Positions 12,808 to 18,690 of a DNA stretch of 64,000 nucleotides are shown in pieces. Numbering within the stretch: the stretch's first letter is position 1; the number at the start of each line of letters is the position of its first letter. Location: assembly GCA_021789995.1 (NCBI GenBank), contig JAJYIQ010000001.1, positions 248,001-312,000 of the forward strand, given 5' to 3'. Under the pieces are notes generated by a model. The model did not search any database. It had not been told where the DNA came from and was given only the letters and a program-made list of their open reading frames with translations. The position numbers were made by a program, and so were the translations under genes. Source of the stretch: a bacterium. Lineage in GTDB: Bacteria > Patescibacteriota > Microgenomatia > UBA1406 > GWC2-37-13.

Positions 12808-13845
12808 ATGGAAACTTTAACACCTACCAGCATTGGCGAGGTGTCGCCGATACCGATCCGGGCGACGGAAATGAGGAAAAAAAATATTTATCCTGACGTC
12901 ATCGCTAAACGTAGTGACCTGATGGGAATGATCGACCAATTTCATTCTCATCCTTTCGATAATGACACAACAAGGTACAGCACGCGGGCATTTGTTACGG
13001 ATCAATCGCTTCAATCTTTAAGTGTCGTTGACAGAAAATTTGCGGAACCGTATATTGAAGGCATCATTCCGCTTGCCGGTTGCGGTTCTTTACCGCTGGA
13101 AGACTGCGCTCTTTTATATCTTGGAAAAAACGCTCCCGAAAGAACACCGTCAGCCGATATCGTCGATAGAGAAATAGCAAAGGCGAAACCGATTTTTAAT
13201 GAGAGCGATGACGGCTCCGTCCGCCCTCTTCCCGGAGGGTTTGAACTAAGAGCCCTGACGTCGGAAGACAGACAGAATGCCGGTATCCAATCACAATATG
13301 CGGAGTTATATCAGGCATTCGGTTACGGTCCGGAGGATGTTGCCAAAATGCTTCTCAACCAAAATAATGTCATGGTGGCGTTATTCGATGAAGATACCAT
13401 CGTCAGTACCGGGATGGTGGAGCACGCCCATCTGCATCTTGCACGCAACGGTCAACCGTTTATGTTCAGCGTCGGAGAAGTAACAGAGGGATTTACCCGC
13501 GAAGAGGCAAACGGCCAGGTTTACCGCGGCAAAGGATTGTATACTCATGTAGTCACAGAGCTGATGAGAGAGGAGGCAAAAAATGGTGTTAACCTGATTT
13601 ATGCCGAATCAAACGCCGATCTGTCAATCCCTTATGATTTACCACCCGTTCTGGTTTCGGCAAAAAAACAAGGAAGGGAGTCGGCGCTTGCCGCATTTGA
13701 CCATTATGGATTCCGGCCGCAACTGCTGCGGCGGCACGTCCATATCGTTAATGACAAAAATGATGCTCGCCCGCCGGAAATCCAAAATGATCTTCTGGTA
13801 ACATATATGGTAAGGAACAGATTAAGGGAAAGATATGGAAAGTGA
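12808..13845 (+). CDS. GNAT-family N-acetyltransferase, substrate unknown
   Basis: The protein is 345 residues. The C-terminal part (about 175-310) has the GNAT fold: 'VMVALFDEDTIVSTGMVEHAH' (beta-4 region) and the acetyl-CoA loop 'VYRGKGLYTHVVTELM' with the R-x-x-G-x-G/A pattern, then 'NLIYAESN' and 'AFDHYGFRPQ' (typical 'GF' after the last helix). The N-terminal 150 residues are not recognised and contain a phrase, 'GMIDQFHSHPFDNDTTRYSTR', with no known match. It is the first gene of a three-gene operon, and its 3' end overlaps the M20 gene by 11 nt. Confidence 0.8.
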   Translation: METLTPTSIGEVSPIPIRATEMRKKNIYPDVIAKRSDLMGMIDQFHSHPFDNDTTRYSTRAFVTDQSLQSLSVVDRKFAEPYIEGIIPLAGCGSLPLEDCALLYLGKNAPERTPSADIVDREIAKAKPIFNESDDGSVRPLPGGFELRALTSEDRQNAGIQSQYAELYQAFGYGPEDVAKMLLNQNNVMVALFDEDTIVSTGMVEHAHLHLARNGQPFMFSVGEVTEGFTREEANGQVYRGKGLYTHVVTELMREEAKNGVNLIYAESNADLSIPYDLPPVLVSAKKQGRESALAAFDHYGFRPQLLRRHVHIVNDKNDARPPEIQNDLLVTYMVRNRLRERYGK

Positions 13846-14965
13846 TATCGCTTCATTGCTAAAACAATTAGTTTCCGTAAAATCCACTTATCCTGATGAA
13901 AAAGAAATCGGAGAGTATTTATTTCAGCTATTCCAATCGCACAATTATAATCCAAAAAAACAAATAGTAGAAAATAATCGCTTTAACCTGACGGTGCAAA
14001 AAGGGCATGGCAAAAAAAGCGTCTTATTATACTCTCATCTGGATACGGTTAATGTCGTTGAGGGCTGGCAAACCGATCCCCTTGAATTAAATATCAAAAA
14101 CGGGAAAGCCTTCGGATTGGGCGCTTGGGACATGAAGGGTGGAATGGCTGTAAACATTCTCACCTTCCTCCGTTTCCATCCAAAAAATTTTCGGTTGAAG
14201 CTTGTTTTTTGCGTTGATGAAGAAAATATTTCAAAAGGTGTGCAGACGTTAATCAAGACTAATTTTATCAACGATGTTGACTGCGTCATCTCTCCCGAAC
14301 CGGCATTCGACTACGGTTTGAGAGGAATAGTGACGGGCAGAATCGGCCGGGCGGTATATAATATCGAAATTAAGGGTGAATCGAGGCATTTTGCGCTGTA
14401 TGAAAAAATGTACGATATCAATCTTTTTGCGGCCGAATTTTTGGTCCAAATCAGCAGGTTAAACAGGATCATCGGCCACCGGAAACAATTTATTTTTGCC
14501 CGGAAAATTATCTCCGAAGCGGTAGGCATGTCTATCCCACCAAAAACCTGTATTCAACTTGATTCTTCGGTGTTGCCGCCCAATACCCATAACCAAATTC
14601 TTGATTGCCTGGCCGGCATCGGTAAAAATTTAAGCAAAAAATACGGTAATTACTTTTCCGTCAAGCTCGGTTTTTTGCAACGCGATACGCCATTCCTGGA
14701 ATCGTATCAGATTAAAGACAACAATCCGTACCTGAAATTACTCAAAAAAAGCATCGGCCAAAAAACCGGTCTTGCCGCCCAAGATTATTTCCGGTCATCG
14801 GTAGCGGATGAAAATGTCTTTGGTTCTCATGGCAAAACCGTTCTTGGTATCGGCGCTCACGGCGGTAACGCTCACGCGGCCAATGAATGGGTTTCATTGT
14901 CTTCACTGGAAAAACTCTATATAATATTAAATAGCTTTCTTGAAAAAGTTAATACGCAAATATGA
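13835..14965 (+). CDS. M20-family metallopeptidase/deacylase (ArgE/DapE/LysK-like)
   Basis: The 376-residue protein has all the M20 zinc and catalytic motifs: 'LYSHLDTV' (His ligand and catalytic Asp), 'GAWDMKGGMA' (bridging Asp), 'DEEN' (catalytic Glu), 'SPEPAFD' (Glu ligand) and 'GAHGGNAHAANEW' (last His). The dimerisation insert lies between about 165 and 280. Family members remove acyl groups from amino acids (ArgE, ACY1) or from carrier-bound lysine (LysK), or split dipeptides. The substrate cannot be read from the sequence. It is coupled upstream to a GNAT acetyltransferase (11-nt overlap) and downstream to LysRS (4-nt overlap). Confidence 0.92.
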   Translation: MESDIASLLKQLVSVKSTYPDEKEIGEYLFQLFQSHNYNPKKQIVENNRFNLTVQKGHGKKSVLLYSHLDTVNVVEGWQTDPLELNIKNGKAFGLGAWDMKGGMAVNILTFLRFHPKNFRLKLVFCVDEENISKGVQTLIKTNFINDVDCVISPEPAFDYGLRGIVTGRIGRAVYNIEIKGESRHFALYEKMYDINLFAAEFLVQISRLNRIIGHRKQFIFARKIISEAVGMSIPPKTCIQLDSSVLPPNTHNQILDCLAGIGKNLSKKYGNYFSVKLGFLQRDTPFLESYQIKDNNPYLKLLKKSIGQKTGLAAQDYFRSSVADENVFGSHGKTVLGIGAHGGNAHAANEWVSLSSLEKLYIILNSFLEKVNTQI

Positions 14966-17286
14966 TCTGGGTTGACCGGGAAGTAAAAAAAATCAAAGAA
15001 CGCAGTTTACACCGAGCTGGGCGAGGTGAATGGGTGGACGATATGAAAACACCCTCCGGCCGCATCCATGTCGGATCACTGCGGGGTGTCGTCATTCATG
15101 ATTTGGTCTATAAGGCGTTGGCGGAACAAGGCGTCAACGCCCATTTTTCTTATGTTTTTAATAACATGGATCCGATGGACGGGATGCCGGCATATCTCGA
15201 TAAAAACAAATGGCAAAAATACATGGGTTTTCCTTTGTGCAAAATCCCATCGCCCGAGCCGGGATTTGATAATTTCGCCCATTATTATGCCAGTGAATTT
15301 ATTCAGGTATTTAGTTCGATCAATTGCCATCCGCAAATCATCTGGTCAATTGATCTTTATCGGTCAGGCAAAATGAATGTCCTCATAAAATTGGTTTTGG
15401 ATAATGCCGACAAAGTCCGGGAAATTTATAAAAAAGTCGCCAAAACGGAAAAACCGGCCGACTGGTTTCCTTATAGCCCGATCTGTCAGAAATGCGGCAA
15501 GATCGGTACCACCCGCGTTTATAAATGGGATGGGCAATATGTTTATTACCGTTGCGAACCGAACATGGTCGAATGGGCGCAGGGTTGCGGTCACGAAGGT
15601 AAAGTGGAACCGGTGAATGAAAACGGGAAATTACCGTGGAAACTTGACTGGCCTGCCCACTGGAAAACAATCGGCATTACCATCGAAAGCTCCGGTAAAG
15701 ACCATATGTCGGCCGGCGGTTCTTATGATTTATCATCACATATCTGTCGCGAGATTTTAAATTACGAAGCGCCCGATGCTTTAGGCGGTTACGAATGGTT
15801 TACGATTGGCGGTCGGAAAATGTCGTCCTCCAAAGGCATCGGTACATCCGCCAAAGAAGCGTCACAGATTTTGCCGCCGGATGTCTTCCGTTTCCTTTTG
15901 GTGCGGACGCCAAAAGACACGCATCTCGATTTTAATCCTGAAGGCGAAACAATTCTCAATTTATTTGACGATTACGATCGCTGCCTCAATGCTTATTTTG
16001 CCAAATTGGAAAATAATATTCCGAAAAGCAAACAGGGGGAAGTCATGCTCGACTTTGCCCGGATTGCCGAACTTTCCTCTGTCCGGCCGATGCCTTTGGC
16101 GCGAATGCTTCCCCCCCGCTTCCGGACAATCGTCAATTTGCTAAAAAACAAAACCGATATTGCCGATTATTTTATGAAACAGAAAAAAGCGGCATTAACG
16201 GTTGAAGAAAAGCAAATGCTTGATGAACGGATTAAATACGCCAAATTGTATCTATCCAATCATGCGATTAACAAAAACGAAAAATCCGATTTCCAAACCA
16301 CCGCTAACCAAATAAAGTCTTTAACAGAATTACGCGATCGCGTAATTCTGTTAAAGAATCCTACTCAAGAAAATCTGCAAACAATCATTTTTTCAGTTAT
16401 AAAAAAAACGAATATTTCCCCTCAATCATTTTTCCAAGCTTTTTACCAGATGCTGACCGGCAAAGATTTTGGACCGAAAGCAGCCGATCTAATATTAGAT
16501 TTGGGGATAGAAAACGTAATTGGCAAATTATCCGGCGGACAGCAATCGACAAACGCTGGACAGGATAGCAAAACAAACCGCTTACCGAATTTAAATGCTC
16601 CGCAAATTTTTTCTATTAATTCAACCGTTGTGCAAAAATATCCTTCAATCAGTGTCGGCATCGCCATGATTAAAAATGTCAAAATAAATAAAAACAATTC
16701 CGAATTGACCAAAAAGTTTGACGAATTTATTCATTCACAAGAAAACCTGACAACGGAAATCCTTGGCACTTATCCGGAAGTCAGAAGTTATCGGAAACTT
16801 TACAAAGAAATGGGTATCGATTGGCACTCCCGCCGGCCATCGCCGGAAGCATTATTACGACGGGTAGCCCAGAAAAAAAATCTTTATCGGATTAACGATT
16901 GCGTCGACGCTTATAATCTGATCGTTATGAAAAACCGTGTTTCCGTCGGCGCGTTTGACTTGGATAAAATAAAATTTCCAACCATTCTGAAATTTCCGAA
17001 AGAAGGCGACGAAATCTTATTGCACGGAGATAAAGAACCCACTAAATACAAATCAACGGAACTGGCGTATTTCGATCAGGCAGGCGGTTACAATATTGAC
17101 TTTAATTATCGCGATTCCCAACGGTCGCTGATAACCGACGAAACTATGAATTTACTAATAAATGTCGATGGCGTTTACGATATTTCCCGCGACATGGTGG
17201 AAAAAACTCTGCAGGAATCAATCGACGAAATTATCAAATACTGCGGCGGCGAAGTGACTAACACCGGTATAGTCTCTGCTACTTAA
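14962..17286 (+). CDS. lysS: Class I lysyl-tRNA synthetase fused to a B3/4 editing-type domain
   Basis: The 774-residue protein starts with class I LysRS: HVGS at 36-39, a zinc-finger-like insert (CQKC near 173 and a later 'QGCGHEG'), KMSSSK at 286-291 and the C-terminal anticodon-binding helices ending with 'LTGKDFGPKAADLILDLG' near 510. After a polar linker (about 520-545), residues 546-774 match the B3/4 domain of PheRS beta and its stand-alone relatives: 'YPSISVGIAMIKNV', 'RPSPEALLRRV', 'INDCVDAYNLIVM', 'VGAFDLDKI', 'FNYRDSQRSLIT' and 'KYCGGEV'. That domain hydrolyses mischarged tRNA or free amino-acid adducts in known cases. A 40-bp perfect palindrome lies inside the reading frame at residues 453-466. 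Confidence 0.95.
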   Translation: MIWVDREVKKIKERSLHRAGRGEWVDDMKTPSGRIHVGSLRGVVIHDLVYKALAEQGVNAHFSYVFNNMDPMDGMPAYLDKNKWQKYMGFPLCKIPSPEPGFDNFAHYYASEFIQVFSSINCHPQIIWSIDLYRSGKMNVLIKLVLDNADKVREIYKKVAKTEKPADWFPYSPICQKCGKIGTTRVYKWDGQYVYYRCEPNMVEWAQGCGHEGKVEPVNENGKLPWKLDWPAHWKTIGITIESSGKDHMSAGGSYDLSSHICREILNYEAPDALGGYEWFTIGGRKMSSSKGIGTSAKEASQILPPDVFRFLLVRTPKDTHLDFNPEGETILNLFDDYDRCLNAYFAKLENNIPKSKQGEVMLDFARIAELSSVRPMPLARMLPPRFRTIVNLLKNKTDIADYFMKQKKAALTVEEKQMLDERIKYAKLYLSNHAINKNEKSDFQTTANQIKSLTELRDRVILLKNPTQENLQTIIFSVIKKTNISPQSFFQAFYQMLTGKDFGPKAADLILDLGIENVIGKLSGGQQSTNAGQDSKTNRLPNLNAPQIFSINSTVVQKYPSISVGIAMIKNVKINKNNSELTKKFDEFIHSQENLTTEILGTYPEVRSYRKLYKEMGIDWHSRRPSPEALLRRVAQKKNLYRINDCVDAYNLIVMKNRVSVGAFDLDKIKFPTILKFPKEGDEILLHGDKEPTKYKSTELAYFDQAGGYNIDFNYRDSQRSLITDETMNLLINVDGVYDISRDMVEKTLQESIDEIIKYCGGEVTNTGIVSAT
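16318..16357. repeat. 40-bp perfect palindrome inside lysS
   Basis: Arms 16318-16337 and 16338-16357 are exact reverse complements with no spacer. The centre is GCGATCGC (16334-16341). The reading frame is maintained and encodes SLTELRDRVILLK in the helical C-terminal part of LysRS. In mRNA it would form a very stable hairpin, and in DNA a possible cruciform. Confidence 0.95.
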
Positions 17287-18004
17287 TTATGCCGTTAGCC
17301 AAACCCTTAAATGACTGCTTATTGGCGGAATTAAATGATAGCCCTCCAGCTATCATTTGCGTTAACGGAAACTGCACCAATTCATGCAACTCCCAGCGAA
17401 TCGGCAATTTCGGGATGATAAAATCATTATCCCAACCACCAACCGCATCCAAGCCACCAGCAACAGCCGAATGATCCCGCATATAATCAACTAGGTTAAC
17501 CATATCCAAGTTTGGATTAATAATCCCCTCATGTAAAACATATAAATATATATGTTCCACCTTGTCGTCAAAAACTACCACGCCGGTTTCCGATCTAATG
17601 TTCTTTCCCCGTTTACTCCAATAAAAATCGGCCATTTCCATTACTCCGGCCTCTGTACCGTCAGTATGAGCTTCCGGTTTACATAAAACCGAACCCTCCA
17701 CCACCTGATCGGAATCAGTGACAACATGCTTATGACTGATCTTCATCTCGCCATTATCCAATAATGGTTTCAGCGCTGTCTCTTTTGCCAAATCCACGTG
17801 TACCGGGTAGGGCCATCCATCACTGTAGTAAGGTATAATTATTCCGTTTTTCCTTGCCGTATCATATTCTTTTTCTCCTGTAGCCACTATATGAAGTTTG
17901 TGTTCATCCTTTTCAACCGCAAGCCCATATGTCCTCGCCAACTCCTGCTTTATCCTACTACCGCTTACAAGGCGGATATTGGGATCGTAATATGGTATTT
18001 CCAT
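17279..18004 (-). CDS. Conserved-looking orphan protein, unknown function
   Basis: The protein is 241 residues from the ATG at 18004 (MEIPYYDPN). An upstream ATG at 18037 is in frame, but a -10 box (18010-18015) lies between the two. No family was recognised. It is soluble, with no signal or transmembrane segment. Charged or polar phrases that might be functional are 'GEMKISHKHVVTDSDQVVEG', 'KPEAHTDGTEAGVMEMADFY' and 'DHSAVAGGLDAVGGWDND'. The His/Asp/Glu content would suit a metal site, but this is only a hint. Its stop overlaps the lysS stop on the other strand by 8 nt. Confidence 0.75.
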   Translation of the reverse strand: MEIPYYDPNIRLVSGSRIKQELARTYGLAVEKDEHKLHIVATGEKEYDTARKNGIIIPYYSDGWPYPVHVDLAKETALKPLLDNGEMKISHKHVVTDSDQVVEGSVLCKPEAHTDGTEAGVMEMADFYWSKRGKNIRSETGVVVFDDKVEHIYLYVLHEGIINPNLDMVNLVDYMRDHSAVAGGLDAVGGWDNDFIIPKLPIRWELHELVQFPLTQMIAGGLSFNSANKQSFKGLANGIIK

Positions 18005-18009
18005 AATTA

Positions 18010-18037
18010 ATTGTATATGATACTGTATGATAGTCAA
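18010..18037 (-). promoter_or_regulatory. Promoter of the orphan gene 17279-18004
   Basis: On the minus strand TTGACT (18037-18032) and TACAAT (18015-18010) are separated by 16 nt. Only 5 nt separate the -10 from the ATG at 18004, so the message is probably leaderless. Confidence 0.5.
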
Positions 18038-18075: not shown

Positions 18076-18690
18076 ATGAAGAAATTATTACTCGCTACCC
18101 ACAACCGGGCAAAACTGCAGGAATTAAAAACCGGTGCCGCCGGATTGGTTTCGCAGAGTATCAAAATCCTCTCTCTATCGAACCTCAATATTACGACCGA
18201 ACCGGAGGAAACCGGAAAAACCTTTGAAGAAAATGCCTTAATTAAAGCCAGGTATTATGCTGAAAAAACCGGCCTGCCGACAATCGCCGATGACGGCGGA
18301 CTGGAAATTGAGATCCTAGACGGTGAGCCGGGTGTAAAATCAAAAAGATGGGTCGGCCATGAAGGGACGGACGAAGAGCTGATTACCTATACTTTGAAAA
18401 GACTAACCGGATTACCAAAGCAAAAACGAAAAGCGTATCTGTCCGTCTGTCTTTGTTATTTCGACCCTAAAACAAAAATGACTCTCTGTAAACAGGAAAA
18501 AATAAATGGTCATATTGCCGAAGTGCCAAGTGGCCGACCAACCAATGGCTATCCTTTTCGCGCCCTTTTTGTTGTTGATGAATTAGGGAAATATTATGAT
18601 GAATTAACGGAAGAAGAACATAATAAAATAAACCACCGGCTGAAAGCGCTGAAACGGCTGATAAACAATATAAAATATATGCTAAAATAA
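18076..18690 (+). CDS. rdgB: dITP/XTP pyrophosphatase (HAM1/RdgB family)
   Basis: RdgB hydrolyses non-canonical purine triphosphates (ITP, dITP, XTP) to the monophosphates and so keeps deaminated bases out of DNA and RNA. The 204-residue protein has the N-terminal 'LLATHNRAKLQELK' (SxNxxK-type nucleotide-binding motif with T for S), 'FEENALIKARYYAEKTGLPTIADDGGLEIE' with the catalytic acidic residues, and 'GRPTNGYPFRALFV' near 155. The usual 'SHR' near the C-terminus appears as 'NHRLKAL'. Length and motif order are normal. Confidence 0.93.
   Translation: MKKLLLATHNRAKLQELKTGAAGLVSQSIKILSLSNLNITTEPEETGKTFEENALIKARYYAEKTGLPTIADDGGLEIEILDGEPGVKSKRWVGHEGTDEELITYTLKRLTGLPKQKRKAYLSVCLCYFDPKTKMTLCKQEKINGHIAEVPSGRPTNGYPFRALFVVDELGKYYDELTEEEHNKINHRLKALKRLINNIKYMLK

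Follow-up and report, generated by a model that had tools for sequence, protein, structure and literature searches.

Domain architecture of a fused lysyl-tRNA synthetase

The 64,000-nt stretch of DNA considered here (the window) comes from a patescibacterial genome (G000; 898 kb, 4 contigs, 93% complete) and contains a gene in which a class I lysyl-tRNA synthetase (LysRS) is joined to a C-terminal domain of the B3/4 family (Table 1). As the original prediction had claimed, the gene is a single uninterrupted 774-codon frame, which has no internal stop codons and carries the HVGS and KMSSSK motifs of class I LysRS. Both TIGR00467 lysS_arch (334.9 bits) and PF01921 scored above their cut-offs, which together with the HIGH- and KMSKS-type motifs places the N-terminal part among class I LysRS enzymes. 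The best solved sequence match for this part was the class I LysRS 1irx, and the same structure (1irx_A) was matched by Foldseek with the LysRS core of the full-length model (E 7e-32). The catalytic and anticodon-binding domains and the motifs are common to the window protein and class I LysRS (LysK; 1irx), while the fusion adds about 230 residues. LysRS is the one synthetase that occurs in both classes, and a post-transfer editing domain is not known for either form. The LysRS-I entry of AARS Online is also without an editing domain (PMC11580382), and no description of a LysRS–B3/4 fusion was found in the open-licence literature, although automatic entries for the architecture may exist in domain databases.

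The C-terminal region was assigned to the B3_4 family by hmmscan, in which PF03483 matched residues 610-740 with an E of 4e-18 and 66.1 bits (66.1-69.7), against a cut-off of 29.3. The whole domain, which had been placed at residues 546-774, was found at about 545 to 774, including a CtdA-like N-terminal part. The AlphaFold2 model of the full-length protein had a mean predicted local distance difference test (pLDDT) score of 91.7 and a predicted template modelling (pTM) score of 0.63, with a low-confidence linker between the two parts, and the model of the isolated domain had a pLDDT of 96.9 and a pTM of 0.92. The best structural matches of the domain were both CtdA, namely 9mkl_A (Z 24.9, root mean square deviation 2.4, 216 residues) and 9f7e_A (Z 24.9, 224 residues), so that the likeness covers nearly all of the 230 residues, while the editing region of PheRS beta came behind them with a Z of about 18. 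Foldseek used on the full-length model agreed with CtdA as the nearest relative. Hence, the assignment to B3/4 made in the original prediction holds on fold as well as on profile score, while its likening to PheRS beta does not, the closest characterised relative by fold being CtdA. CtdA (COG3382; PDB 9f7e, 9mkl) is a stand-alone B3/4 protein, which deacylates canavanyl-tRNA-Arg in vitro, and which prevents canavanine incorporation and protects cells in vivo (PMC10018355).

Two B3/4 matches were present in G000, which were PheRS beta and the LysRS fusion. No class II LysRS above the TIGR00499 cut-off was detected in this genome, in which, at 93% completeness, a second gene could be missed. This suggests that the fusion serves, as it appears, as the sole LysRS of the cell.

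Table 1. Positions of the fusion gene, its domains and motifs, and two neighbouring genes in the window
Feature	Coordinates	Strand	Remarks
M20-family deacylase (DapE/ArgE-like), upstream	13835..14965	+	stop codon overlaps LysRS start (ATGA)
Class I LysRS–B3/4 fusion gene	14962..17286	+	774 aa, ATG start, TAA stop
Class I LysRS catalytic domain, PF01921, residues 2-352	14965..16017	+	307 bits, E 1.7e-91
HIGH-type motif HVGS, residues 36-39	15067..15078	+	from sequence; no variation at H36 and G38 in 54 fusions
KMSKS-type motif KMSSSK, residues 286-291	15817..15834	+	from sequence; K286, M287, S290, K291 invariant in the fusion alignment
Anticodon-binding helical domain, PF19269, residues 415-523	16204..16530	+	E 3.3e-07
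Flexible linker, residues 527-537	16540..16572	+	pLDDT <50, AlphaFold2 model
Complete CtdA-like B3/4 editing-type domain, residues 545-774	16594..17283	+	PF03483 core, domain model and CtdA fold match
Lys-type signature DWHSRRPSPEALLRR, residues 620-634	16819..16863	+	conservation of 90-100% across 76 Lys-type domains; Arg/solo type has a different sequence
VDAYN, residues 648-652	16903..16917	+	D649, N652 conserved also in solo B3/4 and PheRS beta
GAFD, residues 663-666	16948..16959	+	G663 is His in PheRS; F665 is Glu in Arg/solo type
FNYRD, residues 714-718	17101..17115	+	N715, R717 common to solo type; E/Q in place of D718 in Arg/solo type
RdgB/HAM1 non-canonical NTP (nucleoside triphosphate) pyrophosphatase	18076..18690	+	separate protein from the fusion; recurrent neighbour

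Distribution of the fusion and exchange of its LysRS core

The domain was carried by 13 of the 57 related genomes, in frames of 758-798 aa, of which 12 contained class I LysRS and one (G009) class II LysRS. The distribution outside Patescibacteria rests on a single pattern-based scan of 84,980 species genomes, which depended on the Lys-type signature stretches, so that diverged forms would escape it. The scan gave 66 loci, nearly all of them in Patescibacteria, where the hosts were Roizmanbacteria, Gottesmanbacteria, Levybacteria, Daviesbacteria, Woesebacteria, Dojkabacteria, and CPR3. All 65 loci that were not cut by a contig end encoded a LysRS fusion, 60 of class I and five of class II (L103, L126, L127, L134, and L136). 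A stop or frameshift between the two domains was not borne out in the relatives, as the frame was open in the 12 related genomes with the class I form and in the 60 class I loci from the scan. That two genes were joined artificially during assembly or binning could be suspected from the state of the window genome and from the fact that its relatives are mostly metagenome-assembled; this explanation, to which we give next to no weight, is already refuted by the identical fusion and order in the 65 independent loci and in the 13 relatives, on contigs that reach 1.2 Mb. The ratio of nonsynonymous to synonymous substitutions (dN/dS) against the nearest relative was about 0.13 over the LysRS portion and about 0.09-0.12 over the B3/4 portion, and purifying selection acts on the tail as it does on the synthetase. 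LysRS–B3/4 is a recurrent architecture in Patescibacteria and not the one-off feature that it had seemed. Similar domains are also fused to ArgRS, TyrRS, TrpRS, and MetRS.

A locus binned as ‘Deltaproteobacteria’ (L135) was rejected as evidence from outside the phylum, because the GreA, HD, and SerRS genes around it correspond to the neighbours seen at Patescibacteria loci, and it is probably mis-binned. No relative was found in the viral contigs searched, and the phage records gave weak matches of 26-34%, mostly in short unannotated records. One class I LysRS of 1091 aa (L141:2424-5696) has two tandem B3/4 domains, with altered motifs in the inner copy (VADIFN, GGVYD, FGYRD), and one unfused class I LysRS match (L047; G033:C44:47324-48907) contains a single in-frame TAG.

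The relationships of the domains were compared in a broad tree of 118 B3/4 domains, with PheRS beta as the outgroup, and in a second, carefully built tree with 52 rows. In the broad tree the Lys-type domains grouped together, while the stand-alone and ArgRS-fused domains formed a second group (Arg/solo type), and this split was supported at 100/100 in the 52-row tree. Two LysRS fusions (L185 and L186) were placed in the stand-alone/Arg group, and they look like separate recruitments. Inside the Lys clade the class I and class II partners were interleaved, with at least five class changes in the 52-row tree, and a single clade of class II fusions was rejected by the approximately unbiased (AU) test (p 1.9e-50). 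Class II LysRS has thus acquired the domain several independent times, which is different than in the original prediction, where the feature was treated as an oddity of class I LysRS. The gene order was kept across the class change both in L103, where M20 deacylase, class II LysRS–B3/4, and RdgB follow each other as in the window, and in L134, with the order GreA, class II LysRS–B3/4, HD, and SerRS. This synteny supports replacement of the LysRS core in place. Another case of a core changing under a constant tail is L086, in which the class I core groups with distant unfused cores, while the tail groups with the close relatives of the window protein. In the tree of class I LysRS cores the fused and unfused forms were interspersed, which forces at least six changes and indicates that the tail was gained or lost often. 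The presence of the Lys-type domain on two unrelated LysRS classes suggests that the tail follows tRNA-Lys or lysine rather than one catalytic core.

Conserved residues and the proposed editing function

Comparison of the two domain types separated two sets of residues. The residues D649, N652, D705, N715, R717, and R721, together with a threonine at 722, where the window protein has Ser, are common to the Lys type and the Arg/solo type, while a second set is switched from Lys type to Arg/solo type: F665 to Glu, D718 to Glu or Gln, V655 to Ser, F714 to Trp, N711 to Cys, and D736 to Glu, in addition to the DWHS stretch. The shared residues may be catalytic and the switched ones may determine specificity, with F665, D718, V655, F714, and D736 forming a putative pocket, and the conservation pattern is consistent with a putatively intact active site. 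The six shared residues from D649 to R721 are also conserved in CtdA, which differs in being stand-alone and not a covalent C-terminal tail of LysRS, in belonging to a separate clade with 13-15% identity, in having an x-P-K-K signature versus DWHSRRPSP in the window, and in having Glu versus F665 and Glu or Gln versus D718. The likeness to the PheRS beta domain consists of the Pfam family, the VDxxN core, and the editing-type fold; in PheRS beta, however, a conserved His (HAFD-like motif) corresponds to G663 and a glycine-rich pocket stretch to NYRD, and the window domain has no PheRS partner. The editing site of Thermus thermophilus PheRS relies on Thr249, Asn250, His261, and Glu334. A profile match to 1b70 paired positions 88-150 with 230-292, and if this pairing is ungapped, N652 would fall at Asn250 and G663 at His261.

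Cis-proofreading of tRNA-Lys, which the original prediction had suggested, is the best-supported reading of these data, and we consider it likely that the window protein is a self-editing LysRS, with a post-transfer editing domain that frees tRNA-Lys of a lysine analogue. The class I core would charge tRNA-Lys, and the C-terminal deacylase of the CtdA/PheRS-B3/4 type, tethered by the short flexible linker, would hydrolyse tRNA-Lys that bears an incorrect amino acid, for which the most likely candidate is a scavenged analogue of lysine able to enter the LysRS active site despite its selectivity. We infer from fold, residues, and fusion partner that the domain is hydrolytic, that it acts on tRNA-Lys, and that its substrate is a non-cognate amino acid. 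The Glu-to-Phe switch at position 665 would disfavour canavanine as this substrate. Several points weigh against self-editing. LysRS is not known to depend on post-transfer editing. In several relatives the class I LysRS is unfused and the only B3/4 match is PheRS, which suggests that the domain is dispensable in some lineages. The placement of the two domains relative to each other is uncertain in the full-length model, as reflected by its pTM, the identity to CtdA is low, and the integrity of the active site is judged from conservation. Additionally, class I LysRS was reported not to charge ornithine at all, while class II LysRS does (PMC8001834), so that any substrate common to both classes would be something else, or the tail may be broad in range. 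Ornithine is on these grounds unlikely as the single substrate of the class I form.

A catalytically silent appendage, which would aid tRNA-Lys binding or stability like the OB-fold additions on other synthetases, could also explain why the domain goes with tRNA-Lys in LysRS of either class. A tRNA_bind OB domain is present on another patescibacterial LysRS (L184), and a C-terminal B2-like domain was described on a few Microgenomates LysRS proteins, together with core swapping under an appended domain in the TyrRS of the candidate phyla radiation (CPR; Mukai et al. 2017, PMC5370408). These cases resemble the present one in the attachment of PheRS beta domains to LysRS or TyrRS, in the bacterial group, and in the swapping of the core under a constant appended domain, but by its description the B2 domain is an OB-fold RNA-binding domain and not a B3/4 editing domain. 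We regard the silent role as unlikely, since strong conservation is seen for a particular group of residues that also occurs in the CtdA family, which is enzymatically active, and the L184 protein holds its tRNA_bind domain separately, alongside B3/4.

It is even less probable that the domain edits another tRNA in trans, for example canavanyl-tRNA-Arg, with the fusion to LysRS being a convenience of co-expression. CtdA does act without its synthetase (PMC10018355), and both substrates are basic amino acids; however, the Lys-type clade is separate from the Arg/CtdA-type one, the signature and the putative pocket differ (665 from E to F, 718 from E/Q to D), and it is the ArgRS-fused branch that is of CtdA type. 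Lower still we place a regulatory deacylase, which would hydrolyse correct Lys-tRNA-Lys under some condition or delysylate another acceptor. The repeated fusion or adjacency of an HD-type hydrolase gene to LysRS indicates that LysRS may bear regulatory modules, but a constitutively tethered hydrolase of Lys-tRNA-Lys would be futile, and CtdA discriminates against the cognate amino acid (PMC10018355).

B3/4 domains on other synthetases and neighbouring genes

The LysRS fusion belongs to a larger set of B3/4 fusions, which were found in a wider search of 380 genomes across the phylum, followed by region fetch and frame reading. ArgRS with an N-terminal B3/4 domain was identified by Pfam in L187 and L197, and by sequence in L188-L191 and L195, while TyrRS with an N-terminal B3/4 domain was present in L193 and L196. 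A TrpRS (L192:1166-3412, minus strand) has two N-terminal editing-type domains, a YbaK-type tRNA_edit (PF04073) and a B3/4, and a MetRS in one genome (L194:2246-4666, minus strand) has a C-terminal B3/4. The TyrRS, TrpRS, and MetRS cases are found in one or two genomes each and have long branches. In L208 a B3/4 gene, whose domain groups with the ArgRS-fused ones, forms a split pair with an adjacent ArgRS gene, which has 61% identity to the fused ArgRS. As CtdA is known to act on tRNA-Arg, the ArgRS cases serve as a positive control for inferring a tRNA from the synthetase to which a domain is fused, and the tRNA specificity of B3/4 proteins that are still uncharacterised could be predicted in this way. 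A solo B3/4 gene lies directly after an arginase-family gene in L078:2249-3842.

We give about equal chances of being right or wrong to the broader proposal that Patescibacteria use the CtdA-type B3/4 domain as a plug-in proofreading module, in which the Lys-type subfamily clears a lysine analogue made by each of the two unrelated LysRS classes, while sister types act in cis on ArgRS, TyrRS, TrpRS, and MetRS. If true, the module would give editing to synthetases without a known editing domain, and the domain staying with tRNA-Lys, while the core swaps between unrelated folds, would imply that lysine mischarging is strong enough to select for proofreading in small-genome bacteria. The comparison also narrows the enzymes and residues worth testing to a few.

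Of the genes surrounding the fusion, the M20-family deacylase also flanks a fused LysRS at 10 related loci, and RdgB/HAM1 is present at 38. The open reading frames at 12808-13845 (plus strand, 345 aa) and 17279-18037 (minus strand, 252 aa) had no Pfam match at E 0.1. In L126:2436-3401 a DapF-like gene (diaminopimelate epimerase, judged by eye) is located directly upstream of a class II LysRS–B3/4, at the place occupied in the window by the DapE/ArgE-like gene.

The HD-type hydrolase (PF01966), which had no match in G000, was recurrently adjacent or fused to LysRS of either class (L059:4629-5222; L112:5709-6284; L060-L067). Since LysRS makes diadenosine tetraphosphate (Ap4A), one guess is that this protein is an Ap4A hydrolase. 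The fused forms were class II LysRS–HD in eight relatives, class I LysRS–B3/4–HD in L112, class II LysRS–B3/4–HD in L182, and class II LysRS–HD–B3/4–DUF2000 in L183.
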